From a virus, in the IMG/VR virus record IMGVR_UViG_3300047369_000061, positions 1 to 33,696 of that record: DNA of 33,696 nucleotides; one strand, given 5' to 3'. The notes under the pieces are model-generated. The model was not told where the DNA came from and searched no databases. It saw nothing but the letters and a program-made list of their open reading frames with translations. How positions within the stretch are numbered: the first letter of the stretch is position 1; each line of letters starts with the position of its first letter. The position numbers were made by a program, and so were the translations under genes. Shown in pieces: positions 10,875 to 24,761 of this stretch.

Positions 10875-10884
10875 TGAACAAAAT

Positions 10885-12486
10885 ATGTCAGACGATATTT
10901 TTATAAAACATGATAAGAATGGTGGAACTTTTCAGCAACCCTTTTTAGCCAGAGTACCTGCAGCCGGTCAACAACCGAATATCGCACAAAGAATTTATCA
11001 GGTTACTACTCAAGGAACACAACCATTTACATATCAAAGTAGAACACCTACAAATGTTCAGACGCCTAGTAATGCACAAAATCCAATAATTGCTCAAGGT
11101 GTCGCACAAAAAACCTATAATCACAGGTCGCCTGCTATATACACAAGTAGGGCGCCTTCAATATACAATATTCAAACACCTTCTACATATCAACATGGAA
11201 GTCCGTTGACATATCAACATAGGTCACCGTTTACTTATCAGTTAAATTATCAACATAGAGAACCTTCTACATATCAACATAGAAGTCCTTTGATATATCG
11301 TACACCGACTCAGACTAGAACGCCTAGCATCTATACAAATAGACAACCTTTAACATATGAACATAGAAGTCCTTTTACATATGACCACAGAAGTCCTTCA
11401 ACATATAACCACCAAAGTCCTTCTCGAACACCTTCTACATATCAAAATAGAGAACCTTTAATATATGACCATAGGTCGCCTTATAGAAGTCCGTTTACTT
11501 ATCAACATAGGTCACCATTTACCTATGACCATAGGTCACCTTCTACATACGATAATAGAGAACCTAGTATCTATCAACATAGAAGTCCAGACACTTATGA
11601 CCATAGAAGTCCGTTGATTTATCAGCATCAGTCGCCATTTAGAAGTCCGTCAATTTATCAGCATCAATCGCCAAGTACTTATCAGCATCAGTCGCCATTT
11701 AGAAGTCCGTCAATTTATCAGCATCAATCGCCAAGTACTTATCAGCATAGTTCACCATTTAGAAGTCCGTCAATTTATCAGCATCAATCGCCGAGTATTT
11801 ACCAACATAGGTCACCATTTACAACTCCAGTAATTGTCAATACACAAAACTCAAGAAATGCACGAACACCGTTTATCTTTAGTGAATTACAACAGCAAAA
11901 CATTGGTACTACGACTGCTCCATATACTGAAGTTCATTGTGAGGTTTCAGTTTCGGACCATAGCGGTCTAGAACCTTGGATTGTATTATATTGTGTTGAA
12001 TCAAGTAATGATGTTAATGTATATGTTTATGCTTCATCTGATGGTATACCACCTGGACAGAATGCTGATGCATATCTGGAAGAAACAAATACCGGCGGTA
12101 CTCAAAATGGTCAGCAGCAAAGCATTAATGCAAATAGTGCTATTCTTCTATACAAAATAGACGATGCTGGAACTAATTATTCTGTTGCTAGAAGTACCTC
12201 TACTCATGGTACCTTCAATGAGGGTACTCTGAGCGGAAACATTTCTACAGGCACTGCAATAACTAGCACTTCTTGGAGTTTTGGTACAACTAATGGTACT
12301 TTTACCAAGTGGAAATGTGATAATGCTAGCGGTGGAGATGTTAAGGAGTACGAGACAACTAATACATTTACATTTACAAGTCCAGATGCTAATATGGGAA
12401 CTCATACAATATCGCTAAAAGTGACTCTGTATTACGAAAACGAAGAACCAGAAGACGATGAAAACGATGATAATAACCAGGAGTAA
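10885..12486 (+). CDS. Repeat protein A: proline-led even-length repeats plus C-terminal beta domain
   Basis: 533 residues of unknown function. Residues about 30-332 are units that begin x-P and end in Gln or Arg, mostly 8 residues (type SPFTYQHR), interrupted by 4-residue (SPFR, SPYR) and 6-residue (SPLIYR) units. I count about 11 HRSP and 6 HQSP. The repeat closes with RTPFIF at 327-332. Residues 333-533 form a separate Ser/Thr-rich, probably beta domain with a few cysteines (EVHCEVSV, VLYCVESS), ending in a very acidic tail (PEDDENDDNNQE), in contrast to the Arg-rich repeat. No signal peptide or membrane segment. No clear Shine-Dalgarno precedes the ATG. Protein B follows after 6 bases. 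It is probably a virion fibre or appendage, from its place in the tail-fibre region. Confidence 0.75.
   Translation: MSDDIFIKHDKNGGTFQQPFLARVPAAGQQPNIAQRIYQVTTQGTQPFTYQSRTPTNVQTPSNAQNPIIAQGVAQKTYNHRSPAIYTSRAPSIYNIQTPSTYQHGSPLTYQHRSPFTYQLNYQHREPSTYQHRSPLIYRTPTQTRTPSIYTNRQPLTYEHRSPFTYDHRSPSTYNHQSPSRTPSTYQNREPLIYDHRSPYRSPFTYQHRSPFTYDHRSPSTYDNREPSIYQHRSPDTYDHRSPLIYQHQSPFRSPSIYQHQSPSTYQHQSPFRSPSIYQHQSPSTYQHSSPFRSPSIYQHQSPSIYQHRSPFTTPVIVNTQNSRNARTPFIFSELQQQNIGTTTAPYTEVHCEVSVSDHSGLEPWIVLYCVESSNDVNVYVYASSDGIPPGQNADAYLEETNTGGTQNGQQQSINANSAILLYKIDDAGTNYSVARSTSTHGTFNEGTLSGNISTGTAITSTSWSFGTTNGTFTKWKCDNASGGDVKEYETTNTFTFTSPDANMGTHTISLKVTLYYENEEPEDDENDDNNQE
11641..11820 (+). repeat. Three 60-nt tandem repeats inside gene A
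   Basis: Units 11641-11700, 11701-11760 and 11761-11820 are near-identical. Each starts agaagtccgtcaatttatca and encodes 20 residues laid out as 8+8+4 (SPSIYQHQ, SPSTYQHQ, SPFR type). Units 1 and 2 differ at only a few bases. Unit 3 has more synonymous changes. Confidence 0.9.
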
Positions 12487-12492
12487 TGTGAT

Positions 12493-13587
12493 ATGCCAGT
12501 AGGACAACAACCATCCATATACCAACATCCTATTGCTACACAGGTGCAACAACCAGCGCAACAACCTGTTATTAGAAACAAACAACATCCGTTTGAAAGA
12601 AATCGACAGCATCAGGCACAGCAACCTGTTATTAGAAACAAACAACATCCGTTTGAAAGAAATCAGCAGGAAAGTAATCAACAACCTAATATTAGAAACA
12701 AACAACATCCGTTTGAAAGAAATCAGCAGGAAAGTAATCAACAACCTAATATTAGAAATCAACAAGAACCTAATATTAGAGACAGACAAAATCCGGTTGA
12801 AAGAGCTCATCAAACTCCGTATACTGCAAACGCACAAGAACCTGTTATTAGAGACAAACAGGCGCCTAGTATAAGAAGCGCCCAACAGACTGCTCAAGAA
12901 CCTAATATTAGAAGCGCTCAAAGTCCTTACACCGCAGATGCACAAGCGAATACGCAGAATCCTTTTATTAGAAATCAACAACAACCTACTATTAAAAATA
13001 AACAGGAATCTGTTATAAGAAACAAACAGTCTGCTTATCAAGCGAGTAAACAAACTCCTTCTATAACAAGAACACCAGCGAGTCAACAAGAACCTAATAT
13101 TAGAAGCGCACAAACACCTTCTATTAGACAAGCGCTTAAAAATAAACAACAACCTAATATTAGAAGTCAACAAGAACCTAATATTAGAAATAAGAGAACA
13201 CCTTCAGCACATAACGCACAATATCTTAATACTCACAATAGACAAGACCCTGTTATTAGAAGGCAACCATTTACATATCCTTTCTCATATAGAAGTCCTT
13301 CTATTTACAGAAATCCTACTATTGGTCGACAACCATATATTGCACAAGGTCAGGCGTCTTATAGTTTTCAACAAAACAGACAACAACCATATGGATTCAG
13401 GTCTCCGTTTATATTTCAAGCAACAGAGAACTCTAATCGACCAATAACGCCAGTTGCAAAAGTGAAAGGAGTCTTTATAAAAGATAGTGATGGTGTTGTA
13501 AAAGCTTCAACTAAAGTCTTTGTTAAGAAAGATAGTTCAACAGTTGAGAAAATTCATCAGGTACCTGCTTTGCCGTTTGACGAATAG
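12493..13587 (+). CDS. Repeat protein B: EPNIRNQQ-type proline-led repeats
   Basis: 364 residues of unknown function. Residues about 5-308 consist of x-P...Q/R units of 8, 6 or 4 residues (QPVIRNKQ, HPFERNRQ, ESNQ, EPNIRSAQ). Near the end it shifts to the YR/SP dialect (QPFTYPFSYR, SPSIYR). The repeat closes with RSPFIF at 303-308. The C-terminal ~55 residues contain VKGVFIKDSDGVVKASTKVF, which resembles the WVKTDSGTWKAADQIYVKT unit at the N-terminus of protein C. A Shine-Dalgarno (AGGAG) overlaps the stop codon of gene A, so A and B are probably translationally coupled. Very rich in Gln, Asn, Arg and Pro; no signal peptide. Probably a partner of A in a virion appendage (inference). Confidence 0.75.
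   Translation: MPVGQQPSIYQHPIATQVQQPAQQPVIRNKQHPFERNRQHQAQQPVIRNKQHPFERNQQESNQQPNIRNKQHPFERNQQESNQQPNIRNQQEPNIRDRQNPVERAHQTPYTANAQEPVIRDKQAPSIRSAQQTAQEPNIRSAQSPYTADAQANTQNPFIRNQQQPTIKNKQESVIRNKQSAYQASKQTPSITRTPASQQEPNIRSAQTPSIRQALKNKQQPNIRSQQEPNIRNKRTPSAHNAQYLNTHNRQDPVIRRQPFTYPFSYRSPSIYRNPTIGRQPYIAQGQASYSFQQNRQQPYGFRSPFIFQATENSNRPITPVAKVKGVFIKDSDGVVKASTKVFVKKDSSTVEKIHQVPALPFDE
12541..12780 (+). repeat. 60-nt tandem repeats at the start of gene B
   Basis: Four consecutive 60-base units (12541, 12601, 12661, 12721). Three share attagaaacaaacaacatcc in the same place. Each encodes 20 residues made of two 8-residue units plus one 4-residue unit (QQPVIRNKQHPFE core, ESNQ or HQAQ spacer). The 60-nt, 8+8+4 size is the same as the tandem in gene A, although the residues differ. 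Confidence 0.85.
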
Positions 13588-13591
13588 GATG

Positions 13592-13599: not shown

Positions 13600-13604
13600 G
13601 TAAT

Positions 13605-13937
13605 ATGGCTATAATCGCAAATTTATTTATCGACCAGGGAACAGACTTTCAAGTTGCTGTAGATGTTTCCGATTCAACAGGACAGGTTTTAAATCTCTCT
13701 GGTTATACATCAGCAGGACAAATAAGAAAGACCTATGGTTCTTCAACCATATCTGCCACATTCACTACCAGTAATGAGAATGTTACCGGTAAAGTGACAT
13801 TATCTTTGACTGATACTCAAACATCAGCATTAGAACCTGGAAGATATGTGTATGATATGAACATAACAAGTGCTGGTGGTATAACAACAAGAGTTGTAGA
13901 AGGTCAAGCAATAGTCACACCAGGAGTAACCAGATAA
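13605..13937 (+). CDS. Small beta-sandwich structural protein
   Basis: A 110-residue protein starting MAIIANLFIDQGTDFQVAVDV, followed by LNLSGYTSAGQIRK, a GKVTLSLTDTQTSAL strand pair, PGRYVYDM and a C-terminal VVEGQAIVTPGVTR. This pattern, an Ig-like or baseplate-upper-protein-like beta sandwich, is common in structural genes of marine T4-like phages. It is probably virion associated and may be an adaptor between fibre and baseplate. It overlaps the next gene by one base (TAATG), so the two are probably coupled. Its promoter motif sits so close that the message may be leaderless. Confidence 0.65.
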   Translation: MAIIANLFIDQGTDFQVAVDVSDSTGQVLNLSGYTSAGQIRKTYGSSTISATFTTSNENVTGKVTLSLTDTQTSALEPGRYVYDMNITSAGGITTRVVEGQAIVTPGVTR

Positions 13938-14179
13938 TGGCAATAAAAGGCGTAGTATCAAGAGTCGCTACCATAGGTGGCGTATTATCTAACACAACAA
14001 ATCTAAGAGCAAAACAAGTGACTGTTGGCAACCCAGGCGGTGCAACAGACTTATCTGCTAAATCTATCAATGAACTTGCAGATGTAAACGCATCTGAAAC
14101 AGATGATGGTCTTCTCTCATATGACCAGTCAACTGATAAGTGGACAACCACCACTACGATAGACGGCGGAACATTCTAA
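13937..14179 (+). CDS. Short tail or fibre protein ending in IDGGTF
   Basis: 80 residues. The start MAIKGVVSRVATIGGVLSNT and the section SAKSINELADVNASETDDGLLSYDQSTDKW resemble fibre modules of the type INELADVNxxxxxDGxxLxYDxxTxxW found in phage tail proteins. It ends TTTIDGGTF, a terminus shared with the 544-aa protein (AIDGGTF) and nearly with the 72-aa protein (TIDGGTI). The ATG shares a base with the stop of the preceding gene. Probably a small structural piece of the fibre complex; exact role unknown. Confidence 0.6.
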   Translation: MAIKGVVSRVATIGGVLSNTTNLRAKQVTVGNPGGATDLSAKSINELADVNASETDDGLLSYDQSTDKWTTTTTIDGGTF

Positions 14180-14182
14180 AAC

Positions 14183-14190
14183 ACTAAATA
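14183..14190 (+). promoter_or_regulatory. Late-promoter-like motif ACTAAATA with TAGTA extension
   Basis: CTAAATA followed by ATAGTAC. T4 spacing predicts +1 at the A of 14196. It would give a 126-base leader for the gene at 14322. Confidence 0.5.
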
Positions 14191-14195
14191 ATAGT

Positions 14196-14321
14196 ACAAA
14201 TCAAGGTTGTCGACCAGTGAGACAACGACCCTCATTGTGAGAGGACAGTTTTATATTATGTATTCACGACTCAGGAGTGCTGAGTCACAACAATTAATTT
14301 AATTTTTATAGGAAAATAAAA
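14196..14321 (+). promoter_or_regulatory. Structured 5' leader with four hairpins
   Basis: This gap holds GTTGTC/GACAAC (14206-14211 with 14221-14226), CTCA/TGAG (14231-14241), GACTCAG/CTGAGTC (14268-14274 with 14280-14286), and an 8-bp AT stem (14302-14309 with 14316-14323). The last stem displays the Shine-Dalgarno AGGA in its loop and includes the first two bases of the ATG. No ORF of note lies here. It matches no riboswitch I recognise. Confidence 0.5.
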
Positions 14322-15956
14322 ATGGCAACAGTAATTCAAATCAAAAGAAGTACAGGCGCATCTGCTCCGGCGATATCAGATTTATCGGAAGGTGAATTGG
14401 CGTATGTACAAGATAGAAGTAATTCTGGTGCATCTGCTAAACTATTCATCGAATCAGTAGATTCAGATAATTCTACAGCCCTAATCCATGCGATTGGTGG
14501 TAAGTATTATACTGATATGCTTGCTGGTTCTTCAGCAACACCTGCTAACTTTAAAGTTGGTAATGGTTCTACTGCTGGTGCAACTTTACAAATCATGGAA
14601 GATTCCGATAACGGAACAAACTTCGTTGGTCTTAAAGCTGCAGATACTCTTGGTTCTTCAGTAACCTTCACGCTGCCTACCGCAGACGGTTCTGCTAACC
14701 AAGTTATAGCAACAGATGGTTCAGGAAATCTTTCTTTCGCTTCAACAACTTCAACCCTTGCTGGTGGTAGTGATGTAAACATCACATCCGCAGGTGATGG
14801 TGCGATGTTATTATATGATACAGGAACATCAAAATGGATTGACAATGTAATGTCTGGTGACGCCACTATGGCCGACACAGGTGTTATGACAATCGCAAAC
14901 AACGCTATCAACGCTGCTAAATTAGCAGATGATGCAGTAGATACTGCAGCTATCTTAGATAGTAATGTGACATTAGATAAGATTAACTTCTTTGTAGACG
15001 AAGACAACATGGCTTCTAACTCAGCAGTTAAAGTTCCTTCTCAACAATCAGTAAAAGCATATGTAGACAGTAGTGTAACCGCTTCAGACTTAGATATGGC
15101 TGGTGACAGTGGAACAGGTGCAGTAGACTTAGACTCTCAGTCACTAACAATCGCTGGTACAGCAAACGAGATTGAAACATCAATGTCAGGACAAACTTTA
15201 ACAGTTGGTCTTCCAAACAATGTGACAGTCGCAAATAACTTAACAGTTTCAGGAAACTTAATATCAGACGATATTACAACTGCAACTTTAACAACATCTG
15301 GTAACTTAACAGTCACAGGAAACTTGGCAGTTAATGGTACTACAACAACAGTAAACTCAACAACAGTAAATATCGCTGACCCTGTATTCGAAATTGGTTC
15401 AGATAGTTCAGACGATAACCTAGACAGAGGTATTAAATTTAAGTACAACTCCGGTGGTGCTAAAATTGGTTTCTTTGGTATGGATGATACAGATGGTTCT
15501 TTTGTCGCTCTAACAAGTGCAACAGATAGTTCTTCAGTATTCTCTGGAACTGCTATGGCAGGTAAATTCGGAAACTTAACTCTTGCTAACGCAAGTATGA
15601 GTGGAAGTATTGACAGTTATGCAGGTTCAGCTCCTACAGATGGTCAAATCTTAATTGGTGACACATCTTCAGGTTTAATGGATGCTGCTACTCTTACTGC
15701 TGGTGATGGTATTGATATCACTAATGGTGCAGGTGCAATTACGATTGCTGCTGAAGTATCAACTGCTTCTAACTTAGGTTCTGTAATTGTCGCTGCTGGC
15801 GAAGGTATGGATGTAGCGTACTCAGGTGGTACAGCAACCATTACTGGAGAAGATGCAACGACATCTAATAAAGGTATCGCTAGTTTTGCTAGTGCTAACT
15901 TTACAGTATCAAGTGGTGCAGTTACCATTACTGCTATTGACGGTGGAACATTTTAA
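14322..15956 (+). CDS. Modular fibre protein with MATVIQIKRS/GELA N-terminus (544 aa)
   Basis: A 544-residue phage fibre protein. The N-terminus MATVIQIKRSTGASAPAISDLSEGELAYVQD is the common phage fibre start with a GELA motif and is shared with the next gene (MATVIQFKRS, GELAVN). Next come LPTADGSANQVIATDGSGNLSF, a DEDNMASNSAVKVPSQQSVKAYVDSSV module also seen in the 884-aa protein, and a GNLTVTGNLAVNGTTTTVNSTTVNI beta module with FEIG, typical of marine phage fibres. It ends ITAIDGGTF. Low-complexity Asp/Ser/Thr/Gly composition fits an extended trimeric fibre. A late-type promoter and a structured leader precede it. Host recognition is likely but inferred. Confidence 0.7.
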   Translation: MATVIQIKRSTGASAPAISDLSEGELAYVQDRSNSGASAKLFIESVDSDNSTALIHAIGGKYYTDMLAGSSATPANFKVGNGSTAGATLQIMEDSDNGTNFVGLKAADTLGSSVTFTLPTADGSANQVIATDGSGNLSFASTTSTLAGGSDVNITSAGDGAMLLYDTGTSKWIDNVMSGDATMADTGVMTIANNAINAAKLADDAVDTAAILDSNVTLDKINFFVDEDNMASNSAVKVPSQQSVKAYVDSSVTASDLDMAGDSGTGAVDLDSQSLTIAGTANEIETSMSGQTLTVGLPNNVTVANNLTVSGNLISDDITTATLTTSGNLTVTGNLAVNGTTTTVNSTTVNIADPVFEIGSDSSDDNLDRGIKFKYNSGGAKIGFFGMDDTDGSFVALTSATDSSSVFSGTAMAGKFGNLTLANASMSGSIDSYAGSAPTDGQILIGDTSSGLMDAATLTAGDGIDITNGAGAITIAAEVSTASNLGSVIVAAGEGMDVAYSGGTATITGEDATTSNKGIASFASANFTVSSGAVTITAIDGGTF

Positions 15957-15975
15957 TTAATATTCTTTAACACAC

Positions 15976-15996
15976 TTTCAATAGGAGATAGAAATG
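15976..15996 (+). promoter_or_regulatory. Shine-Dalgarno displayed in a hairpin loop before the 274-aa gene
   Basis: TTTC (15976-15979) pairs with GAAA (15991-15994). AGGAG lies in the loop (15983-15987). The A of the ATG at 15994 is in the 3' arm. The stem is only four pairs, so pairing is tentative; the Shine-Dalgarno itself is good. Confidence 0.35.
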
Positions 15997-16818
15997 GCAA
16001 CAGTTATACAGTTTAAAAGAAGTTCGACTCAGAACGCAGTTCCTGGTACTGGTGATTTATCACTAGGGGAATTGGCTGTCAATACTTATCACGGTAGATT
16101 TTATACCGAGAAGAATGATGGTTCTGCTGCTGTTGTAGAGATTGGGTCTAACCCAACATCTCTACAGATTAATGACGCTATAACATTTCCAACCAGTGAT
16201 GGTTCAAATGGACAAGTTCTTCAAACCAATGGTTCAGGAACAGTTTCATTTGCAACTTTAGGTGGTTCAGGTGTTTCAATTTACAAATACACCGTTTCGG
16301 GTAACCAAACTGTATTTACAGGTAACGATGATGACAGTAATGCATTGTCTTACACTGTAGGTTCAGAACAAGTATTCCTTAATGGTGTTAAGTTAGTTGA
16401 TGCTGGTGCAGATTATACTGCAACCAACACCACAACAATCACACTGGAAGAAAATGCAATTGCAGGTGATACATTAGAAGTAGTAGCAGTTACCGCTGCT
16501 AATTTAGTACAAGGATACTATACAAATAGTGTCTTTAGTGCAACTACTGCTAATCAAGTATTATCAAGTAATGCAGTATCTAATAAAGGTATTAAATATG
16601 TTATTACTGCCACTCATGCGAGTGCAGGAACACATTCAGCCGAAGTATTATTAATCAATGATGGATCCAATGCATATTTCGTTCAATATGGCGATATATT
16701 CAGTACTGCTTCATTATTTTCGTTGACAGCTGATGTTAATTCAGGAAACATGAGACTCTTATGTACACCTGCTAACACCAACACAACGGTTAATACTTTC
16801 CAAATAAGACAATCATAG
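15994..16818 (+). CDS. Fibre protein with GELA N-terminus and shared C-terminal tip domain (274 aa)
   Basis: 274 residues. Residues 1-50 repeat the MATVIQFKRS...LGELA start of the upstream 544-aa protein. Residues 64-90 carry FPTSDGSNGQVLQTNGSG. Residues about 97-170 carry the QTVFTGNDDDSNALSY then VFLNGVKLVDAGADYT fibre domain, related to one in the 810-aa protein. Residues about 196-274 are a domain (KYVITATHAS, LLINDGSN, VQYGD, DVNSGNMRLLCTPANTN) shared with the next two proteins. The gene has a strong AGGAG site. It is a mosaic of known fibre modules, and the C-terminal domain is a likely tip or assembly element (inference). Confidence 0.7.
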   Translation: MATVIQFKRSSTQNAVPGTGDLSLGELAVNTYHGRFYTEKNDGSAAVVEIGSNPTSLQINDAITFPTSDGSNGQVLQTNGSGTVSFATLGGSGVSIYKYTVSGNQTVFTGNDDDSNALSYTVGSEQVFLNGVKLVDAGADYTATNTTTITLEENAIAGDTLEVVAVTAANLVQGYYTNSVFSATTANQVLSSNAVSNKGIKYVITATHASAGTHSAEVLLINDGSNAYFVQYGDIFSTASLFSLTADVNSGNMRLLCTPANTNTTVNTFQIRQS

Positions 16819-16829
16819 GGGGATAGAAA

Positions 16830-17240
16830 ATGGCTATAACAAGAAGTTTTAAACTCGCTGAATTCATCCGTCACATGTCTTATAACTCTAGTACAGATAG
16901 AATAGAAACAGGTAAAGAGATTCAAGACGAGAATACAACAACAGGTGGTATCACTAAAACTGCTACTACTGAATTCTCACTTGATAACTTTGCTCATGCT
17001 ACCTATAGAGCTGCGAGATATATCGTGGCGATGTCAGAGGGAAGTAATTTCCACTCAACAGAGATAATGTTAGTACATGACGGTTCTACCGTGACATTAA
17101 CACAATACGGAACGCTTAAAGATACTAACTTAGCGACATTTGATGCAGACATTAATGGAGACAATGTTAGACTACTATGTACACCGGCGGGTACAAACTC
17201 AACGGTTATTAAGTTTAACAGAACTACAGTCGAAGCTTAA
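16830..17240 (+). CDS. Short structural protein made mainly of the shared tip domain (136 aa)
   Basis: 136 residues. A unique N-terminal ~50 residues (MAITRSFKLAEFIRHMSYNSSTDRIETGKEIQ) is followed by the shared domain: RAARYIVAMSEGSNFHSTEIMLVHDG, TQYGTL, DADINGDNVRLLCTPAGTNSTVIKFNR. The same domain ends the 274-aa and 272-aa neighbours. The gene is preceded by a GGGGGA ribosome site and followed by a strong terminator, so it closes a transcription unit. It looks like a stand-alone version of the tip domain on a different anchor. Confidence 0.65.
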   Translation: MAITRSFKLAEFIRHMSYNSSTDRIETGKEIQDENTTTGGITKTATTEFSLDNFAHATYRAARYIVAMSEGSNFHSTEIMLVHDGSTVTLTQYGTLKDTNLATFDADINGDNVRLLCTPAGTNSTVIKFNRTTVEA

Positions 17241-17258
17241 ATTCAGTAATATATTATG

Positions 17259-17289
17259 AAAAGGGGGACTTTAGAGTCCCCTTTTTTTT
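17259..17289 (+). terminator. Strong rho-independent terminator
   Basis: GGGGACT (17264-17270) pairs with AGTCCCC (17275-17281) around a TTAG loop. An A run upstream extends the stem into the T run, and eight T follow (17282-17289). It ends the unit that closes with the 136-aa gene. Confidence 0.92.
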
Positions 17290-17305
17290 GTCGGTAGATA
17301 AATTA

Positions 17306-17313
17306 CATAAATA
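17306..17313 (+). promoter_or_regulatory. Late promoter CATAAATA placed on the start codon
   Basis: CATAAATA matches the T4 late consensus at 7 of 8 bases. It lies just after the terminator. T4 spacing puts +1 at 17319, exactly the A of the ATG. No Shine-Dalgarno is present in the preceding 30 bases. Confidence 0.65.
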
Positions 17314-17318
17314 ACACC

Positions 17319-18137
17319 ATGGCATCGAAAGTAAAATTTTTCGCAGATTTAGGTGTACAGTCAAAACTAAACACCCAAGTAGATGGCGATTTAACAGTTG
17401 CAGGTGACTTAACGGTTACAGGGACAACTTTAACAGTCAATTCTACAACGACATCTGTTGGCGACTCAATGTTTGAGTTCGCAAATCAAAATACTAGTTC
17501 AGACCTAATCGATATTGGTTTCTACGGAAACTACAACGATGGTTTATCAGATGGTGGTGCATCTGAGTACACAGGTCTATTCAGAGATGCATCGGATTCT
17601 ACATGGACATTATTCGATGGTTTAGAGGTAGAACCAGGAACTACAGTTAATACTAGTGGTTCTGGTTATGCACTTGCTGATTTAAAACTTGGAGATTTAA
17701 CTTCTTCAACACTAACAGCAGGTGGATTATTATATCCAACTTCAGATGGTTCTAACAACCAAGTCTTAATGACTAATGGTTCTGGTACTTTATCTTTTCA
17801 AGATGCTGGTTCAGGACTTACTTCTGGTACAGTGACTACAACATCGACTACTATCACAAATTTAGATACAATGGCGATTGCAAGTTATAGAGGTGCAAAG
17901 TATACTATAACAGTCTCAGACGCTACTGGTGGTGATTATGAGATAACAGAGGTTCATGTAATACACGACGGTACTAACGCAAGTATAACGCAGTTTGGTA
18001 CAGTCCTACAAGGTACATCTAGTGAGTTAGGAAGTTTCTCAGTAGATATCAACTCGGGCAATCTCAGATTGAGAGTCACTTCTGCCAGTACAAACTCCAC
18101 AGTTTATAATTTTAAGCGAATAGACCACGCTGTATAA
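17319..18137 (+). CDS. Fibre protein with beta modules and shared tip domain (272 aa)
   Basis: 272 residues. The start MASKVKFFADLGVQSKLNTQVDGDLTVAGDLTVTG leads into the DLTVTGTTLTVNSTT module with FEFANQNT, a version of the beta module in the 544-aa and 884-aa fibres. YPTSDGSNNQVLMTNGSG follows near residue 145. Residues about 185-272 hold the shared domain (YRGAKYTITVSDATG, VHVIHDG, TQFGTV, DINSGNLRLRVTSASTNSTV). No ribosome binding site is visible and the promoter abuts the start, so this may be a leaderless message. A structural fibre role is likely. Confidence 0.7.
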   Translation: MASKVKFFADLGVQSKLNTQVDGDLTVAGDLTVTGTTLTVNSTTTSVGDSMFEFANQNTSSDLIDIGFYGNYNDGLSDGGASEYTGLFRDASDSTWTLFDGLEVEPGTTVNTSGSGYALADLKLGDLTSSTLTAGGLLYPTSDGSNNQVLMTNGSGTLSFQDAGSGLTSGTVTTTSTTITNLDTMAIASYRGAKYTITVSDATGGDYEITEVHVIHDGTNASITQFGTVLQGTSSELGSFSVDINSGNLRLRVTSASTNSTVYNFKRIDHAV

Positions 18138-18197
18138 AATAGTTATAACTAATTGAATTTTATTAGGGAAAATGAGGTCTTTAGAACGACACCAATC

Positions 18198-18205
18198 TAT
18201 AAATA
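18198..18205 (+). promoter_or_regulatory. Late promoter, exact TATAAATA
   Basis: Perfect T4-type late consensus followed by ATAGTAT; +1 is predicted at the A of 18211. It drives the 72-aa/884-aa fibre pair. The rest of the 18138-18246 gap holds a 12-base palindrome (18140-18151) and nothing else I can name. Confidence 0.8.
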
Positions 18206-18207
18206 AT

Positions 18208-18226
18208 AGTATTAATTACTAATACT
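18208..18226 (+). repeat. Inverted repeat overlapping the late transcription start
   Basis: AGTATTA (18208-18214) and TAATACT (18220-18226) are perfect complements with a 5-base loop, followed by TTT. The predicted +1 (18211) lies inside the left arm, so only read-through transcripts would carry the whole hairpin. Confidence 0.6.
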
Positions 18227-18246
18227 TTTACAAAAGGACACAAGCA

Positions 18247-18465
18247 ATGGCAACAACACAAACATTTGTAATCGAGTATGGGTTATCAGTAGGGTCATCT
18301 GAAGTCATAAATTCAAGTGGAAAAATCGTACCAGGTGCGTTATCCAATGTGGATTCAGACGATATAACAGAAGGTTCAACTAACCTGTATATGACTACTT
18401 CAAGATTCAACTCTTCATTTGATACGAGACTATCTAACGCCACCATTGATGGAGGCACTATCTAA
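18247..18465 (+). CDS. Short fibre-anchor paralogue of the 884-aa protein N-terminus
   Basis: 72 residues. The front (TFVIEYGLSVGSSEVINSSGKIVPGAL) parallels the start of the following 884-aa protein (NFIIKNGLTVGTTEVITSAGLITGAAV). The middle (DDITEGSTNLYMTTSRFNSSFDTRL) parallels its DEITEGSSNLYFTNTR repeats. It ends TIDGGTI. AAGGA eight bases before the ATG is a good ribosome site. Its stop overlaps the next ATG by one base (TAATG), so it is coupled to the large fibre. It looks like a stand-alone anchor module, either a degenerate duplicate or a short partner subunit. Confidence 0.65.
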   Translation: MATTQTFVIEYGLSVGSSEVINSSGKIVPGALSNVDSDDITEGSTNLYMTTSRFNSSFDTRLSNATIDGGTI

Positions 18466-21119
18466 TGACAAGTAAAAATTTCATAATCAAAAATGGTCTA
18501 ACAGTAGGAACTACTGAGGTCATAACATCTGCTGGTTTAATTACTGGCGCCGCTGTCAACGAGGCAGTTGACGATAGAGTTGATTCTCTACTAACTGCTG
18601 GAACAGGTATCTCATTAACATATGATGACGCTGCTGGCACACTAACAATTAACGGACAACAAGGTGACATCACAGGTGTGAACGCTGGTGCTGGTTTAAC
18701 TGGTACTGCAAGTTCAGGTGATGCAACACTAAACATTGGTGCTGGTACAGGTATTACTGTAAATGCAGACGATATTGCAGTCAACTTCAAAGATGAAGAT
18801 GACATGTCTTCAAACTCAGCAACTCATGCCGCTACTCAACAATCAATTAAAGCATATGTAGATGCAAGTATTCTAACAAAAGACAATACAGACGAGATTA
18901 CAGAAGGTTCAAGTAATTTATACTTCACAAATACAAGAGCAGATGCAAGAATTACAAACGCATTAGTTGATGAAGATGATATGTCTAGTAATAGTGCTAC
19001 TAAACTTCCAAGTCAGCAATCAGTTAAAGCATATGTTGACGCTCAAGTTGCAACAGTTCCAACTGGAGACATAACAAGTGTAGTCTCAGGAACTGGTCTA
19101 ACAGGTGGCGGAACAAGTGGCGATGTCACTGTAAATGTTGTTGCAGGTAATGGTCTTATCGCAAATGCAAACGATGTGACAATCGATACTTCGATAACAG
19201 CAGATTTAACTACTGCACAAAACTTAACAAACAAAACAATAACGACTCCAATTCTAAATGGAACAGTTTCGGGTACTGCTGTCTTAGACCAAGACAATAT
19301 GGCTTCTAATAGTAATACTCATCTTGCAACGCAACAATCAATCAAGGCATATGTAGACTCTTCAGTTGCAGGTAAAGATAATACAGACGAGATTACAGAA
19401 GGTTCAAGTAACCTATACTTCACAAACGAAAGAGTAGACGATAGAGTAGATGCTCTACTAACTTCTGGTGTCAATGTCGCTATGACATATGACGATGCAA
19501 ATGGAAGTTTAGAGATTAGAGTACCTTACGAGAATATACAAGATACAGTTGGTGCTCAAATTGCAACCAATGGTACACATACAGGTCTTACTGCATCTTA
19601 TGACGATGCAAACGATGGTGCAATCGACCTTGCAGTATCAACATCACATGTTAGAGGTTTAATATCTGCTGGTGGTGACTTATCATACAACAGTTCAACT
19701 GGTGTAATTAGTTTCACAAACGATGCTGGTGATATTTCTTCAGTAGTTGCTGGAACTGGTATGACTGGTGGGGGAACTTCTGGTGATGTGACAGTTAATG
19801 TTATTGGGGGAGACGGTATTACTGCAAACGCAAATGATATCGCATTGTCTTCTTCAGTCGCTGGTAATGGTCTTTCATTCTCAAGTGGTGTTCTTGCAGT
19901 AGGGGTTGACGATAGTTCAATCGAATTAGATTCAGATGCAGTTCAAGTAAAAGCACTTGGTGTCACAAATGCCATGTTGGCAGGGTCTATCAATGAAGGC
20001 AAACTTGCAGGTGGTATTACAAACGCAAAACTTGCTAATTCTTCAATCACTATTGATGGTACAGCAGTATCACTTGGTGGTAATATAACTACAACAAATA
20101 CACAATTAACAACAGAACAAGTCGAAGACATTGTTGGTGGTATGTTAGATGGTACCGAAACAGGTATCTCAGTATCATACGATGATACAAATGGTAATCT
20201 TGACTTTGTTATTGGTGATAACGACATTACTAATGCCATGTTGGCAGGGTCAATCAATCAATCCAAACTTGCAGGTTCAATTACAAATGCAAAACTTGCT
20301 AATAGTACGATAACAATTGATGGTCAATCAGTTGCATTGGGTGGTTCAGTCACAACAACTAACACTCAATTATCAACAGAGAATGTACAAGATATCGCTG
20401 GGGCGATGTTCTCAAGTAATACTGAAAGTGGTATTACTGCAACATATCAAGATGCAGATGGCACAATTGATTTGAATGTTAGTGACCCAACAATATCCTT
20501 GACAGGCGATGTGACAGGTTCTGCTACAATGACCAATTTAGGTGATGTTAGTATCTCTACTACAGTCGCTGCTAACTCAGTCGCACTTGGAACAGACACA
20601 ACAGGTAATTATATTGCAGGTGTAAGTCAAGGAACTGGTGTCTCAGTAAGTGGTTCTGGAGAAGGTGCAACCGCAACAATCTCTATTGGACAGGCAGTTG
20701 GAACATCAAGTAATGTTCAATTTGGAAACTTAGTTCTCACAGGCGACTTAACAGTTAATGGTTCAACAGTAACCAATTCGGCAACAAATACAACTATCGA
20801 AGACCAACTTATAGAGTTAGGGACAGGTAATAGTGGTTCTGCTTCAGGCGATTCAGGTTTTGTTATCGAAAGAGGAAGTGATGCCAATGTATTTATTGGT
20901 TGGGATGAAAGTGCTGATGCAGTCACATTCGGAACAGGAACATTTACAGGTGCATCAACAGGTGATTTAACGATTACCCCAAGTGCAGTAAACACTGGCG
21001 CATTGACAATTACAAATGCAACAAACAGTGGTGGCACAGCGAGAAACATATATCAGTCAACATCAGCACCAGGCGGAAGTGATGGCGCAGTTGGCGATTT
21101 ATGGGTTCTTTACTCTTAA
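18465..21119 (+). CDS. Large modular tail fibre protein (884 aa)
   Basis: An 884-residue fibre. The N-terminal anchor (residues 1-30, FIIKNGLTVGTTEVIT) matches the 72-aa neighbour. Repeated modules follow: DEDDMSSNSATHAATQQSIKAYVDASI several times, DEITEGSSNLYFTNTRADAR, GDITSVVSGTGLTGGGTSGDVTVNV, TNAMLAGSINEGKLAGGITNAKLANS, and GAQIATNGTHTGLTASYDDANDGAIDL. Near the end is the GDLTVNGSTVTNSATNTTIEDQLIELG module, then a C-terminus with TSAPGGSDGAVGDLWVLYS. These are typical fibre modules of T4-like marine phages. It is the largest candidate receptor-binding fibre here, by inference from domains and place. Confidence 0.75.
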   Translation: MTSKNFIIKNGLTVGTTEVITSAGLITGAAVNEAVDDRVDSLLTAGTGISLTYDDAAGTLTINGQQGDITGVNAGAGLTGTASSGDATLNIGAGTGITVNADDIAVNFKDEDDMSSNSATHAATQQSIKAYVDASILTKDNTDEITEGSSNLYFTNTRADARITNALVDEDDMSSNSATKLPSQQSVKAYVDAQVATVPTGDITSVVSGTGLTGGGTSGDVTVNVVAGNGLIANANDVTIDTSITADLTTAQNLTNKTITTPILNGTVSGTAVLDQDNMASNSNTHLATQQSIKAYVDSSVAGKDNTDEITEGSSNLYFTNERVDDRVDALLTSGVNVAMTYDDANGSLEIRVPYENIQDTVGAQIATNGTHTGLTASYDDANDGAIDLAVSTSHVRGLISAGGDLSYNSSTGVISFTNDAGDISSVVAGTGMTGGGTSGDVTVNVIGGDGITANANDIALSSSVAGNGLSFSSGVLAVGVDDSSIELDSDAVQVKALGVTNAMLAGSINEGKLAGGITNAKLANSSITIDGTAVSLGGNITTTNTQLTTEQVEDIVGGMLDGTETGISVSYDDTNGNLDFVIGDNDITNAMLAGSINQSKLAGSITNAKLANSTITIDGQSVALGGSVTTTNTQLSTENVQDIAGAMFSSNTESGITATYQDADGTIDLNVSDPTISLTGDVTGSATMTNLGDVSISTTVAANSVALGTDTTGNYIAGVSQGTGVSVSGSGEGATATISIGQAVGTSSNVQFGNLVLTGDLTVNGSTVTNSATNTTIEDQLIELGTGNSGSASGDSGFVIERGSDANVFIGWDESADAVTFGTGTFTGASTGDLTITPSAVNTGALTITNATNSGGTARNIYQSTSAPGGSDGAVGDLWVLYS

Positions 21120-21125: not shown

Positions 21126-21151
21126 GAATAGTATTTTAAGGACTATATAAT

Positions 21152-23254
21152 ATGGCGACAGGCTCACAAAAGGTAAAAACACCAACCGGTTGGAATGCAA
21201 CCCGAGGTGCATGGGTAAAAACAGACTCAGGCACATGGAAAGCTGCAGACCAGATTTATGTAAAGACGCCTACCGGTTGGAATAATGCTTCTGGACAACA
21301 GAGTGTTCAACAACCTTATCCTTATATCGCAAACGCACAAGAACCCAATATAAGAAACAGACAGAATCCTTATCCTTATATTGCTAATGCACAAGAACCT
21401 AATATAAGAAACAAACAGAATCCTTATCCTTATATTGCTAATGCACAAGAACCTAATATTAGAGATAGAAGACAACCTGCGATTTATCAAAATCCAGTAA
21501 ATGCACAAGAACCTAATATTAGAAATCAACAAGAACCAAATATTAGGTCACAACAAGAACCTAATATTAGAAATGCTAGACAACCTGGCACATATCAACA
21601 TAGGTCACCTTCTACATATAGAGACCCTAGAACATATCAGGATCCTTCTACATATAATCATAGAAGTCCGTTGACATATCAACATAGAAGTCCGTTGACA
21701 TATCAACATAGGTCACCATTTACATATGACCATAGGTCACCTTCTACATATAGTAATAGACAACCTAATACATATGACCATAGGTCGCCTTATAGAAGTC
21801 CGTTCATCTATCAACATAGGTCACCATTTACATATGACCATAGGTCACCGTTTACATATCGTAATCCGTTTACTTATAATCACAGGTCTCCTTTAACATA
21901 TGACCATAGGTCACCTTATAGAAGTCCGTTTACATATGACCATAGAAGTCCGTTGACATATGACCATAGGTCGCCTTATAGAAGTCCGTTCACTTATCAG
22001 CATAGAAGTCCGTTGACTTATCAACATCAGTCACCGAGTATCTATCAGAATCCAAGTACCTATCAGAACAGACAACCTAGTACTTATCAGCATCAGTCGC
22101 CAAGTATTTACCAGAATCCGAGTACCTATCAGAACAGACAACCTAGTAGTTATCAGCATCAGTCGCCAAGTATTTACCAGAATCCTAGTACTTACAACAA
22201 TAGACAACCTGGTACATATGACCATAGGTCACCTTATAGAAGTCCGTTTACTTATCAACATAGGTCGCCATTTACATATGACCATAGGTCACCGTTTACA
22301 TATCGTAATCCGTTTACTTACAACCATAGGTCACCTACTACATATAATCACAGGTCACCATATACATATGACCATAGGTCGCCTAGTACATATCAACATA
22401 GGTCACCTAGTACATATCAGGCAAGACAACCTAACGCTGCTAGAAACCCATTTAGTGCAAGACAACCATTTACATACGACCATAGGTCGCCTAGTTCATA
22501 TAATCACAGGTCACCTAGTACATATCAGGCAAGACAACCGAATAGTGCTAGACAACCATTTAGTGCAAGACAACCGTTCACTTATCAGGCAAGACAACCA
22601 AACTCTGCTAGAAACCCATTTAGTGGAAGAAATCCTTTCACTTATCAACATAGAACGCCTTCGATTGCAAACAATCAGTCTCCTGCATCTTATGGATACA
22701 GAAATCCGTTTACCTTTGGTGGTGGAGGAGGAGGCGGAGGTTGCTTCGCTCCAGGTTCAATGATATGGTTAGGCGATGGTTCACATGCACCTATCGAGTC
22801 ATGTGTTATTGGTCAATGGGTCATGTCTTGGAACGAAAGTACTAAATTACTTGAACCTAAGAGAATACAACAAATTAATCCTCAACCAATCAGTTCTATA
22901 TGGGATATAACATTCTCAGATGGTAGAATTCTACAGATGACTGATACTCACCCATTGATGCTACCAAATGGCGAATGGGGTGCATTTGATGTTGAGAAAT
23001 CAGTCAAAGAACATAGTTGGATGGAAGATATAGAAACACATGAACTTACAGTTGGAGATAGTGTATTCAGTATGTTAGATGGAATAATGTTTGATAGACA
23101 AGATGAAATGGGACTAGAGATAGTATCAGTAGAAGAACATTCAGAAATGGAAGTTTATAACTTAACTGATATTGAAGATAACTCGAACTTCTTTGTTAAT
23201 GGAATGTTAGCACATAACTTTAACAACCAAGGTCTACCAATTGGGCAAAAATAA
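21152..23254 (+). CDS. Repeat protein C: proline-led repeats, Gly8 linker and C-terminal Hint domain
   Basis: 700 residues. Residues 1-50 hold a duplicated KTPTGWN unit with WVKTDSGTWKAADQIYVK, related to the C-terminus of protein B. Residues about 54-522 are x-P...Q/R units: first NPYPYIANAQ and EPNIRNKQ types, then about 22 HRSP-containing units (SPFTYDHR) with 4-residue SPYR and 6-residue SPSIYQ pieces. The cap RNPFTF (517-522) and eight Gly (523-530) lead to a Hint domain (531-689): Cys531 first, T597xxH600 as block B, His688-Asn689 last, then Phe690. Only 11 residues follow. The repeat domain is very Arg-rich. This is probably an autoprocessed virion appendage protein. The Hint assignment is firm; the repeat function is unknown. 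Confidence 0.8.
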   Translation: MATGSQKVKTPTGWNATRGAWVKTDSGTWKAADQIYVKTPTGWNNASGQQSVQQPYPYIANAQEPNIRNRQNPYPYIANAQEPNIRNKQNPYPYIANAQEPNIRDRRQPAIYQNPVNAQEPNIRNQQEPNIRSQQEPNIRNARQPGTYQHRSPSTYRDPRTYQDPSTYNHRSPLTYQHRSPLTYQHRSPFTYDHRSPSTYSNRQPNTYDHRSPYRSPFIYQHRSPFTYDHRSPFTYRNPFTYNHRSPLTYDHRSPYRSPFTYDHRSPLTYDHRSPYRSPFTYQHRSPLTYQHQSPSIYQNPSTYQNRQPSTYQHQSPSIYQNPSTYQNRQPSSYQHQSPSIYQNPSTYNNRQPGTYDHRSPYRSPFTYQHRSPFTYDHRSPFTYRNPFTYNHRSPTTYNHRSPYTYDHRSPSTYQHRSPSTYQARQPNAARNPFSARQPFTYDHRSPSSYNHRSPSTYQARQPNSARQPFSARQPFTYQARQPNSARNPFSGRNPFTYQHRTPSIANNQSPASYGYRNPFTFGGGGGGGGCFAPGSMIWLGDGSHAPIESCVIGQWVMSWNESTKLLEPKRIQQINPQPISSIWDITFSDGRILQMTDTHPLMLPNGEWGAFDVEKSVKEHSWMEDIETHELTVGDSVFSMLDGIMFDRQDEMGLEIVSVEEHSEMEVYNLTDIEDNSNFFVNGMLAHNFNNQGLPIGQK
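21771..22335 (+). repeat. ~120-nt segmental duplication inside gene C
   Basis: 21771-21891 and 22215-22335 (offset 444, divisible by 3) align without gaps and differ at about 8 positions by eye. They encode the same order of units (YDHR, SPYR, QHR, DHR, SPFTYR, NPFTYNHR). The interval between them includes the 66-nt tandem units. Confidence 0.8.
22016..22213 (+). repeat. Three 66-nt tandem repeats inside gene C
   Basis: Units 22016-22081, 22082-22147 and 22148-22213 each encode 22 residues as 8+6+8 (SPSIYQ, NPSTYQNR, QPSTYQHQ types). The base differences among the units are mostly synonymous. Confidence 0.85.
22742..23218 (+). other. Hint (Hedgehog/intein) autoprocessing domain of protein C
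   Basis: About 159 residues, the size of a mini-intein without an endonuclease. Block A: CFAPGSMIWLGDGSHAPIESC with nucleophile Cys531. Block B: TDTHPL (Thr597, His600). C-terminal blocks: VYNLTDIEDNSNFFVNGMLAHN, ending His688-Asn689. The +1 residue is Phe, not Cys, Ser or Thr, which in the family favours cleavage over full splicing, as in bacterial intein-like domains. Gly530 precedes Cys531, as expected for thioester formation. Confidence 0.88.
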
Positions 23255-23274
23255 TGAAGATGATAATTAAATTA

Positions 23275-23297
23275 AGATTAGGGAGTAAAATCTAATG
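23275..23297 (+). promoter_or_regulatory. Shine-Dalgarno in a 9-nt hairpin loop before gene D
   Basis: AGATT (23275-23279) pairs with AATCT (23289-23293). The loop AGGGAGTAA carries the Shine-Dalgarno. The ATG begins at 23295, one base after the stem. It resembles the layout before gene C and gp13. Confidence 0.4.
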
Positions 23298-24761
23298 CCA
23301 CAGCAACCTCTAATTGGCATCGCTCAATCGCCAAGCACTTCTAATGTGCAAACTCCGTCTATTGCTAATGGCCAGCAACCTTATACTGGTCAACAACCAT
23401 TTACATATCAGTCGCCATATATTGCATCTGGTCAGACTCCTTATACTGGTCAGACTCCTTATACTTTCCAGAGTCCTTATATTGCGAATAATCAACAACC
23501 TAATATTAGAAATAATCAACAACCTACTATTAAGAATGGTCAGACTCCTTATACTGGTCAACAACCTTATACTTTCCAGAGTCCATACATTGCGAATAAT
23601 CAAGAACCTAATATAAGGAACAATCAGCAACCCAATATTAGAAGCATACAACAACCTAATATTAGAAACCAACAAGAACCTAATATTAGAGATGCTCAGT
23701 CACCTAGTAATGCTCAGCAACCTACAATTAAGAACAAACAAGAACCTAATATAAGAGATTCTCAACAGTCTGCTCAAGAACCAAATATCAGAAACTTTCA
23801 GACTCCTTACATTGCTAATGCACAAGGGGCTAGTGCAGCTCAAGAACCTAATATCAGAAATGCACAAACACCTTATATTGCAAACAGACAAAACACTGCA
23901 AATGCACAAGAACCTAATATTAGAAACAGACAAACACCTTATATTGCAAACGCACAAACCACTTCAAATGCACAAGAACCAAACATAAGGTCACAACAAG
24001 AACCTAATATTCGTTCAGCGCAACAGTCAGCACAAGAACCAAACATAAGGTCACAACAAGAACCTAATATTAGAAACAAACAGCAGAGTGCTCAACAACC
24101 TACTATTAAGAATCAACAAGAACCTAATATTAGAGATGCTCAATCACCTAGTAATGCTCAACAACCTAATATTAGGGCAAAACAAGAACCTAATATTCGT
24201 TCAGGTCAAACGGTAACGCAAGAACCTAATATTAGAAATGCACAATCTCCGTATATTGCTAATGCACAAAATCCGTTTATTAGAAATGCTCAAGAACCAA
24301 ACATAAGGTCACAACAAGAACCTAATATTAGAGCTCAACAAGAACCTAATATTAGAAACAGACAAACAACAGCGAACTATCAGAATCCTGTAAATGCTCA
24401 GAATCCGTTTATAAGAAATAATCAGACTCCATTTACATATGACCATAGAAGTCCGTTGACATATGACCACAGGTCTCCTTTAACATATGACCATAGAAGT
24501 CCGTTTACTTACAGAAATCCTGCAAATAGTCAGACACCTCTTACATATCAACATCAGAGTCCTTCTACATATGCTAGACAAGGTCAAACACCAACGACTT
24601 ATCAACATAGAAGTCCTTCTACATATGCTAGACAAGGTCAGACACCAACGACTTATCAACATAGGTCACCTAGTACATATGCTAGACAAGGTCAAACACC
24701 TGTTATCCGTTGGGATGGTTCATTGTCACAAACATGGCCAGGAACACCTGTTAATTCCTAA
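23295..24761 (+). CDS. Repeat protein D: almost entirely proline-led even-length repeats
   Basis: 488 residues, of which about 3-470 are repeat. The first ~65 residues use TPYTGQ, QPFTYQ and SPYIANNQ units. The middle is dominated by EPNIR units (about 16 by my count) with 6-residue (SPSNAQ) and 4-residue (QSAQ, TVTQ) pieces. The last ~95 residues switch to SPLTYDHR and a TYQHRSPSTYARQGQTPT tandem. There is no separate C-terminal domain, only IRWDGSLSQTWPGTPVNS, and no R-x-P-F-[I/T]-F cap, unlike A, B and C. No membrane segment. It follows C after 40 bases with a clear AGGGAG site. Probably the partner of C, as B follows A. Function unknown. Confidence 0.72.
   Translation: MPQQPLIGIAQSPSTSNVQTPSIANGQQPYTGQQPFTYQSPYIASGQTPYTGQTPYTFQSPYIANNQQPNIRNNQQPTIKNGQTPYTGQQPYTFQSPYIANNQEPNIRNNQQPNIRSIQQPNIRNQQEPNIRDAQSPSNAQQPTIKNKQEPNIRDSQQSAQEPNIRNFQTPYIANAQGASAAQEPNIRNAQTPYIANRQNTANAQEPNIRNRQTPYIANAQTTSNAQEPNIRSQQEPNIRSAQQSAQEPNIRSQQEPNIRNKQQSAQQPTIKNQQEPNIRDAQSPSNAQQPNIRAKQEPNIRSGQTVTQEPNIRNAQSPYIANAQNPFIRNAQEPNIRSQQEPNIRAQQEPNIRNRQTTANYQNPVNAQNPFIRNNQTPFTYDHRSPLTYDHRSPLTYDHRSPFTYRNPANSQTPLTYQHQSPSTYARQGQTPTTYQHRSPSTYARQGQTPTTYQHRSPSTYARQGQTPVIRWDGSLSQTWPGTPVNS
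24543..24704 (+). repeat. Three 54-nt tandem repeats at the end of gene D
   Basis: Units 24543-24596, 24597-24650 and 24651-24704 encode 18 residues each (TYQHRSPSTYARQGQTPT type). The Arg-Ser pair is written AGAAGT in unit 2 and AGGTCA in unit 3; unit 1 has Gln-Ser there. Confidence 0.88.

Follow-up and report, generated by a model that had tools for sequence, protein, structure and literature searches.

The question raised by the tail region described here is why four viral proteins, designated A, B, C and D, are built from proline-led units that almost always contain an even number of residues. The region belongs to the IMG/VR virus record IMGVR_UViG_3300047369_000061; the analyzed window is the whole 33.7-kb record (positions 1 to 33,696), which carries the tail region of a marine T4-like phage. 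The repeat genes form two adjacent couples, A/B (10885-13587) and C/D (21152-24761). Comparison of the partners within each couple suggests an answer: the unit string of one repeat arm is mirrored in the other, and antiparallel pairing of the partner arms is very well supported by the sequences.

The units were defined by a strict parse, in which the chain was cut after Q or R and before x-P. In A-D, this gave 187 units, 186 of which have an even length. Units of 8 residues predominate (108), followed by those of 6 (39), 12 (12), 4 (9) and 10 (7) residues; the longer pieces contain 14 (4), 16 (3), 18 (2), 24 (2) and 53 (1) residues. The sole odd piece, of 53 amino acids (aa), is the C-terminal non-repeat module of B. 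The units have the form xP...[QR], mostly with 4-18 residues, and do not follow the octapeptide repeat VxGxxxxx; collagen-like Gly-X-Y triplets were found neither in the sequences nor in the parse of A-D.

A search of viral contigs with C yielded 61 loci of relatives (denoted below by L-numbers). Parity was assessed in 104 repeat open reading frames (ORFs) of these relatives that differ in sequence, a set that was not freed of near-duplicates and also contains copies of the window's own phage. Among 4,065 units of at most 18 aa, 42 were odd; 31 of these were 13-mers, and 29 of the 13-mers are a single non-repeat motif, TPxxRWD[GN]..., at the C-terminus of D-like proteins. In the longest unit run of each ORF, with the RWD tail removed, proline occupied one parity in 4,285 of 4,353 cases, and 63 of the 68 exceptions came from five phase-switching proteins (L015, L023, fused A+B L039, L041, L054). 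P, I and D share one phase (91-98%; I 93% and D 91% with P), and F, Y, H, V, K, E and L occupy the opposite one (94-98%; F and Y 98%, V 94%). Gaps between aligned relatives were odd in 33 of 1,708 cases. The even lengths reported in the earlier note are confirmed by these counts, and the phase, whose free loss in homologues would have spoken against that note, was kept with few exceptions (L015/L023 and fused A+B proteins); the search of marine viral proteins that it had recommended produced 104 ORFs following the same grammar.

When C, read from the N- to the C-terminus, was compared with D, read from the C- to the N-terminus, 56 of 56 D boundaries coincided at one register, against a maximum of 35 in 200 shuffles of the partner's units and 32 in the best parallel arrangement. 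For A and B in antiparallel orientation, 27 of 33 B boundaries coincided at one register (shuffled maximum 19, parallel best 19). The non-cognate combinations A/C, A/D, B/C and B/D matched at the shuffled level. At these registers, SPFTYDHR faces units of the EPNIRNQQ type and NPSTYQNR faces TPYIANAQ; among units of other lengths, SPFTYR is opposite NPVNAQ, SPSNAQ and the like, SPYR is opposite QSAQ, and QPYPYIANAQ is opposite SPSTYARQGQ.

The same was observed in the relatives. The repeat spans of C and D are nearly equal within a phage and vary widely among phages (r = 0.98, 44 pairs, duplicates included). After dereplication and with the ends anchored, the spans were exactly equal in 16 of 33 pairs and within 16 residues in 29; in this set, r falls to 0.85 through one outlier, L171, which reflects the gap rule of the parse. 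Boundaries were then compared in 27 dereplicated pairs with complete ends (23 C/D and 4 A/B); L018, which has a frameshift in C, L046, whose C is interrupted by a stop, and L023, whose C is truncated at the contig end, had been left out beforehand. The median match of cognate antiparallel pairs was 0.97 (range 0.82-1.00), against 0.58 (maximum 0.73) for cognate parallel pairs and 0.50 (95th percentile 0.70, maximum 0.91) for 702 non-cognate pairs. A hold-out of ten new pairs was taken from loci retrieved with another gene, that of the neck protein; nine of them beat all 200 shuffles, L171 narrowly (14 vs 13).

In addition, an a-priori register was fixed from homology, without fitting, by aligning the RWDG unit of D with the first unit of C. 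This was done in 37 dereplicated C/D systems, a set overlapping the 27-pair and hold-out sets. At this register, 1,221 of 1,329 boundaries matched; when the offset was moved in even steps between -24 and +24, the matching fraction did not exceed 0.51 anywhere else. The totals retain L147, in which a wrong anchor gives 1/48 boundaries and the fitted register 46/48. Mirrored boundaries in two cognate chains are a property of the two-gene pairs and are poorly seen in the single-chain forms described below. A DNA-level origin of the mirror was rejected, as no inverted DNA repeats of at least 18 bases were found within the C-D genes.

As for individual residues, position p of a unit of length L lies opposite position L+2-p of the partner unit (p+q=L+2), with the first residue, x1, opposite x1' of the partner. 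At the fitted register, none of 11,418 facing residues was aromatic-aromatic, against 217 expected, in 36 dereplicated pairs (the 27 pairs and nine hold-out pairs, L122 being dropped); the ratio of aromatic pairs ranged from 0.65 to 3.2 when any other even offset between -60 and +60 was taken. The a-priori register gave 23 aromatic clashes against 237 expected in the 37 C/D systems. Seventeen of these came from the mis-anchored L147, and of the other six, four were located at the tip end and two inside (L171, L192). In the window's A/B pair, the a-priori register gave no clashes against 2.7 expected.

At position 5 of the 480 distinct 8-8 unit pairs, exactly one residue was aromatic in 468 and both in none, with 103 Tyr-Tyr pairs expected. 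In a local control, exactly one aromatic residue at position 5 was found in 97.8% of 759 facing 8-8 units and in 71-83% when D units 1-6 places away were taken instead; both residues were aromatic in 0/759 facing units and in 0.6-18.8% with the displaced ones. Therefore, part of the aromatic pattern reflects regional blocks, and the exclusion itself does not. The favored facing pairs (observed, with expected numbers in brackets) were R-Y 688 (142), A-F 621 (135), H-N 390 (48), E-S 398 (44) and N-T 758 (138), as well as P-R 1377 (392) and P-Q 1564 (559), although part of such preference, e.g., P opposite Q/R, is set by unit position. The excluded pairs were Y-Y 0 (211), F-Y 0 (184) and, on the even face, R-R 0 (91).

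Mutual information between facing residues was highest at the register with x1 opposite x1' (1.52, next 1.24). In the 8-8 unit pairs, the highest cells were (3,7) with 1.15, (7,3) with 1.05 and (5,5) with 1.05, all on p+q=L+2, and the maxima of 6-units and 10-units were also found on the L+2 diagonal. Residue complementarity thus follows p+q=L+2, and the covariation of facing residues sits where in-register antiparallel strands would place them.

The orientation was also assessed from the conservation of the chain ends in 32 pairs, L147 and L171 being left out. Over 60 residues, ungapped identity at the predicted base was 0.67 for the C end and 0.64 for the D end; at the predicted tip, it was 0.17 and 0.18 (0.34 and 0.35 with gaps allowed). 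In the same pairs, the mean pairwise identity of the N-terminal module of C was 0.69 over 45 aa, and that of the C-terminal tail of D was 0.67. This conservation fits antiparallel chains best; the conserved ends of C and D would meet in no other orientation.

Insertions and deletions (indels) show the same mirror. Of 842 C gaps, 310 were matched by a gap of the same length at the mirrored position in D, against 72 in the same-direction control; at identities of at least 70%, this held for 48 of 102 gaps against 3. Clear cases among the comparisons listed are L016 to L019 (+10 and +20 in each gene), L037 to L047 (-18 in each gene) and the window to L025 (-36, -118, -2, -6, -10 and -2 in both genes, a seventh gap near the tip being different). 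In L046 (5723-9098), the C-like frame is broken by a single in-frame stop, which is either a sequencing error or a mutation, and both pieces mirror D.

In some relatives, the two partners are encoded in a single chain. C and D are joined in L079/L080 (identical here; 15786-17156 in L079), L176 and L178, i.e., in three dereplicated cases, where the register fixed beforehand gave 0, 0 and 1 clashes against 5.3, 5.7 and 6.5 expected. Six of the 121 same-parity registers of L079, the predicted one included, are clash-free, and the other five of these have shorter arms. After dereplication, 14 of the 18 A/B systems are fused A+B proteins, although the use of a fused query biased this sample. Over the first 60 residues at the fixed register, no clash was found in 17 of the 18 systems; all seven clashes belong to L064, which is mis-anchored by the pattern used and matches at 21/23 boundaries when fitted. 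The halves of single chains obey the aromatic rule at the predicted register, and their boundaries do not always match. The fused A+B protein of L079 (8001-9407) has a divergent grammar, with YPFTYQARGR-like units that carry Tyr at x1 before proline; the pairing code of this protein may differ in detail.

According to the proposed scheme, A+B and C+D would be two cognate pairs of phage tail-fiber proteins, and the repeat arms of each pair would run antiparallel as a long two-chain beta-ribbon forming a tail-fiber shaft. Each unit would face a partner unit of the same length, first residue opposite first residue, with side chains alternating between the two faces of the ribbon. The odd face would admit at most one aromatic residue per rung, and Tyr would be matched there with Arg, Ala, Gly or Val, Phe with Ala or Gly, His with Asn, Leu with Gln, and Glu with Ser; on the even face, Pro would be matched with Gln or Arg, and Thr/Ile with Asn, Asp or Ser. 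Prolines would be confined to even positions on the outer edge, where the missing NH would point away from the partner, and for this reason the unit lengths would have to be even; a one-residue shift would put prolines in the hydrogen-bonded seam and exchange the two faces. Residue-by-residue antiparallel pairing would thus account for even unit lengths, equal spans and mirrored indels all together. The base would combine the N-terminal module of C with the tail of D, and the N-terminus of A with the C-terminal module of B; the variable ends, i.e., the Hint domain of C and the terminal domain of A, would lie at the tip. We infer physical contact of the chains and a hydrogen-bonded ribbon, for which the paired lengths of 164-538 residues would correspond to ~55-180 nm at ~0.33 nm per residue.

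That two genes write the same unit string in opposite directions as a protein "double strand", with near-absolute complementarity over up to ~540 residues, mirrored indels and single-chain versions, is regarded as highly probable. It also appears quite probable that A/B and C/D are tail-fiber shafts formed by a two-chain antiparallel beta-ribbon with complementary units. The two-residue, beta-like alternation proposed in the earlier note is supported here, and evenness, which that note tied to an inward/outward pattern within one chain, is best explained by prolines being kept on the edge of the strand away from the partner. Likewise, A-D are alike in grammar, as that note had stated, and instead of one plain family they form two antiparallel partner pairs, A with B and C with D. 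The span 10885-24761 given for the family in that note includes 13605-21119, which encodes other tail proteins and does not belong to the family. Nothing was found in favor of the suggested trimer; pairs of chains could still bundle further.

Several observations weigh against this scheme. The tail-fiber placement and virion location are suggested by gene order only, and a two-stranded ribbon of 100 nm would be thin. Modeling of single chains in AlphaFold2 gave no usable repeat model for a fused A+B protein (8 sequences, predicted local distance difference test score (pLDDT) 31) and no regular structure of the repeats for C alone (27 sequences, pLDDT ~35). The off-register cell (7,5) has a mutual information of 1.01, only slightly below the three highest cells. 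On the even face of 8-units, mutual information is low, 0.15-0.16 at (4,6) and (6,4) and ~0 with Pro, and residues on this face are almost invariant. An odd 17-aa unit in D of L015 and L023 shifts the phase of the N-terminal part of D by one residue; it is probably real, being seen in two metagenomes.

The remaining points concern particular pairs and single chains. In the hold-out, the L122 pair, whose C is cut by the contig end, fails. Spans are unequal in L036, where C is 88 aa shorter than its D (8001-11152), and in L032, where D is 44 aa short (2326-5609); tandem blocks may have collapsed during assembly, or these may be genuine intermediates of mirrored evolution that are not yet matched. 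The C and D gap sets are identical in only 3 of 100 comparisons, and many disagree gap by gap, which partly stems from the arbitrary placement of gaps in repeats. In the single-chain C+D proteins, boundaries match poorly at the fixed register (8/19, 2/16 and 13/20), and in L079 more boundaries coincide at another register (10 vs 9; shuffled maximum 12), although that register carries 9 clashes. Among six fused A+B proteins compared on boundaries alone, L069 and L054 were the only ones to beat 200 shuffles. Over full arms at the fixed register, the A/B systems match at 153/344 boundaries and show 34 clashes against 68 expected (18 of them in the mis-anchored L064, which was kept), and register +2 is nearly as low (40 vs 68). 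These clashes, together with the nearly equal register, indicate that the A/B proteins do not hold one register to the tip.

The slenderness of a two-stranded ribbon of 300-500 residues, together with the lack of any AlphaFold2 structure of the repeats, would be better accommodated if the antiparallel pairs were real and had another geometry, namely, a closed two-chain beta-helix, a face-to-face stack or a bundle of several pairs. This is considered rather unlikely, since no second antiparallel register was found from -60 to +60 (boundaries at most 0.53, aromatic ratio at least 0.65). In addition, a face-to-face zipper would have no need for the preferred and avoided pairs that are seen on both faces at one register, with the caveat that unit position dictates part of the pattern on the even face. 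The even-length strands and the recurrent 8-8-4, 8-8-6 and 8-6-6 groups, noted by eye, would also suit a beta-solenoid with variable side lengths formed by each protein alone. Such a solenoid would not predict mirrored unit strings and residue complementarity between two genes, and none appeared in the AlphaFold2 model of C with 27 sequences, which is weak evidence; overall, it seems very improbable.

A composition rich in P, Y, Q and R and the low AlphaFold2 confidence could be expected of a disordered proline/tyrosine-rich adhesive resembling mussel foot proteins and having no defined structure, whereas the parity kept over ~4,000 units and the loss of 217 expected aromatic pairs at one register could not, and this explanation is hardly credible. 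Equally little credence is given to a parallel homotrimeric fiber like the T4 tail fibers or a triple beta-helix. It would be a usual architecture of T4-type fibers, according to PMC3004832; however, parallel matching of C and D is far under antiparallel matching, the conserved ends of C and D would sit at opposite ends, and a homotrimer gives no reason for the cognate matching of two genes. The positions of the predicted parts of A-D and of the neighboring genes are given in Table 1.

Table 1. Predicted parts of proteins A-D and neighboring genes in the window
Feature	Position	Strand	Evidence
Protein A, 533 aa: short N-terminus, repeat arm, C-terminal non-repeat domain	10885..12486	+	sequence, parse
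Repeat arm of A, aa 18-327, putative antiparallel partner of B	10936..11865	+	boundary register, alignment
C-terminal domain of A, ~aa 336-533, predicted distal tip	11890..12483	+	sequence
Protein B, 364 aa	12493..13587	+	sequence, parse
Repeat arm of B, aa 6-315, putative partner of A	12508..13437	+	boundary register, alignment
C-terminal module of B (RPITPVAKVKGVF...EKIHQ), predicted base end	13438..13584	+	sequence
Tail-fiber-assembly-like protein	13605..13937	+	phrog_3304 'L-shaped tail fiber protein assembly' 2.7e-24; phrog_1084 (function unknown) 1.5e-26
Five ORFs between A/B and C/D, mostly of tail-fiber/structural type	14322..21119	+	PHROG matches
Protein C, 700 aa	21152..23254	+	sequence, parse
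N-terminal module of C, aa 1-53 (KVKTPTGWN...), predicted base end	21152..21310	+	conservation
Repeat arm of C, aa 54-517, 464 aa, putative antiparallel partner of D	21311..22702	+	boundary register, alignment
Hint / bacterial-intein-like domain of C, ~aa 531-689, predicted distal end	22742..23218	+	Pfam, AlphaFold2, Foldseek
Protein D, 488 aa	23295..24761	+	sequence, parse
Repeat arm of D, aa 4-467, 464 aa, putative partner of C	23304..24695	+	boundary register, alignment
C-terminal tail of D (TPVIRWDGSLSQTWPGTPVNS), predicted base end	24696..24758	+	conservation
Protein with glycosyltransferase-8-like segment, after D	24799..26346	+	24.4 bits vs cut-off 24.3; conserved synteny
Two 2-oxoglutarate (2OG)-Fe(II) oxygenases (26916-27650, 28448-29158), ORF of unknown function between them	26916..29158	+	domain search; conserved synteny

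According to the Pfam analysis, the C-terminal domain of C resembles Intein_splicing (E = 2e-7; 31.3 bits, under the curated cut-off of 35.8). In the AlphaFold2 model, this region has a pLDDT of ~90, and the best Foldseek matches of the model were the bacterial-intein-like (BIL) protein BIL2 (E = 1e-10) and the DnaB intein (8e-10). An N-terminal Cys and a C-terminal HN are features of the Hint fold; the domain of C starts with CFAPGS and ends with LAHN, in agreement with a Hint/BIL domain. A Hint domain at the tip side was detected in 12 of 32 C proteins using a crude motif, which may miss some. Self-cleavage of this domain could release or crosslink the tip. The C-terminal domain of A is a candidate receptor-binding domain, and other A-like proteins end in different domains (compared by eye only). 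A module like the C-terminal one of B also ends the fused A+B proteins.

The repeat genes belong to a cluster of tail and baseplate genes in a T4-like phage. At the window start, upstream of A, lies a baseplate wedge gene; tail-fiber-type ORFs and the assembly-like gene separate the two couples, and the T4 neck protein and a gp15-type sheath stabilizer are encoded downstream of D. The terminase matched best that of phage C48C1 (62% identity), which is filed under Kyanoviridae; numerous further T4-like phages ranked after it. A PHROG scan of four of the five ORFs between the couples (all but 16830-17240) gave matches to tail or structural families for all four, those of ORF 15994-16818 (1e-4) and ORF 17319-18137 (structural 9e-4, the best match being of unknown function, 4e-6) being weak. 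The 2,328-aa ORF at 1255-8241, which adjoins the baseplate wedge gene, contains a proline/valine-proline stretch (PPPPPPIAPPPP ... VPVPVPVPVP), as noted by eye.

The repeat ORFs, the glycosyltransferase-like gene and both oxygenases occur together in all 33 loci that extend 7 kb or more upstream of the neck gene, a count that is not dereplicated and takes in copies of the window's own phage. The association is synteny and no test of linkage, because no locus was without repeats or without oxygenases, and 2OG oxygenases are frequent in cyanophages in any case (267 records match). The two oxygenases are candidate modifiers of the repeats; with the glycosyltransferase-8-like protein, they may act on prolines or tyrosines by hydroxylation or glycosylation.

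No relatives of C or D were found in genome contigs, and therefore no host can be assigned. Annotated phage records contained no match to D or to fused A+B proteins in BLAST with the low-complexity filter on. A match of C to Vibrio phage F23s1 (33% identity, split into three segments at the end of the record and antisense to the feature annotated there) was rejected as low-complexity noise, and matches of D to Wzz chain-length proteins (E 0.4-0.6) as chance. No PHROG family matched A-D at E ≤ 0.01; the sole Pfam match to the repeat arms, Bflower_3 on A (E = 0.005), was far under its cut-off (17.2 bits vs 34) and was attributed to composition. Among solved chains, no sequence match to the repeats of C was found at E ≤ 1, and the repeats of D matched at chance level only.

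In heterodimeric coiled coils, the pairing of chains is read from complementary residues at defined positions, and these are helical, with a fixed heptad; the repeats described here have beta-type alternation and variable even units, and the unit lengths themselves are matched. As in collagen-like proteins with prolyl hydroxylases, Pro-rich repeats adjoin 2OG-Fe(II) oxygenase genes here, but there is no Gly-X-Y repeat. The BIL/Hint fold, shared by the C-terminal domain of C, is present as a tip domain in some members only and is no part of the repeat system. The T4-type long tail fibers (gp34-gp37) are likewise long and slender, have a variable tip and come from what appears to be the same kind of tail cluster; passages of PMC3004832 describe gp34 as a parallel homotrimer and gp36 as trimeric, whereas here, by sequence, two different chains are matched antiparallel. 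The triple-stranded beta-helix of T4 gp5 also has an eight-residue beta repeat in a phage fibrous protein (octapeptide VxGxxxxx) and, according to PMC4576200 and PMC3004832, consists of three interdigitated chains of one protein; the units here are not VxGxxxxx, vary from 4 to 18 or more residues, and are mirrored in a second gene.

In the literature, no account of mirrored partner repeats or of such a kind of protein recognition, whose residue rules are reminiscent of base pairing, was found, most subscription journals and preprints being outside the search. If true, it would be a protein-protein recognition code that extends along hundreds of residues and in which unit length and residue type are both complementary. 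It would also represent a new architecture for long thin virus fibers and would provide simple rules to understand or build matched beta-ribbons of chosen length. The finding would suggest a role, amenable to testing, for the genes located behind the pairs, which encode the oxygenases and the glycosyltransferase-like protein, and would raise the evolutionary question of how two genes gain equal insertions at mirrored places.

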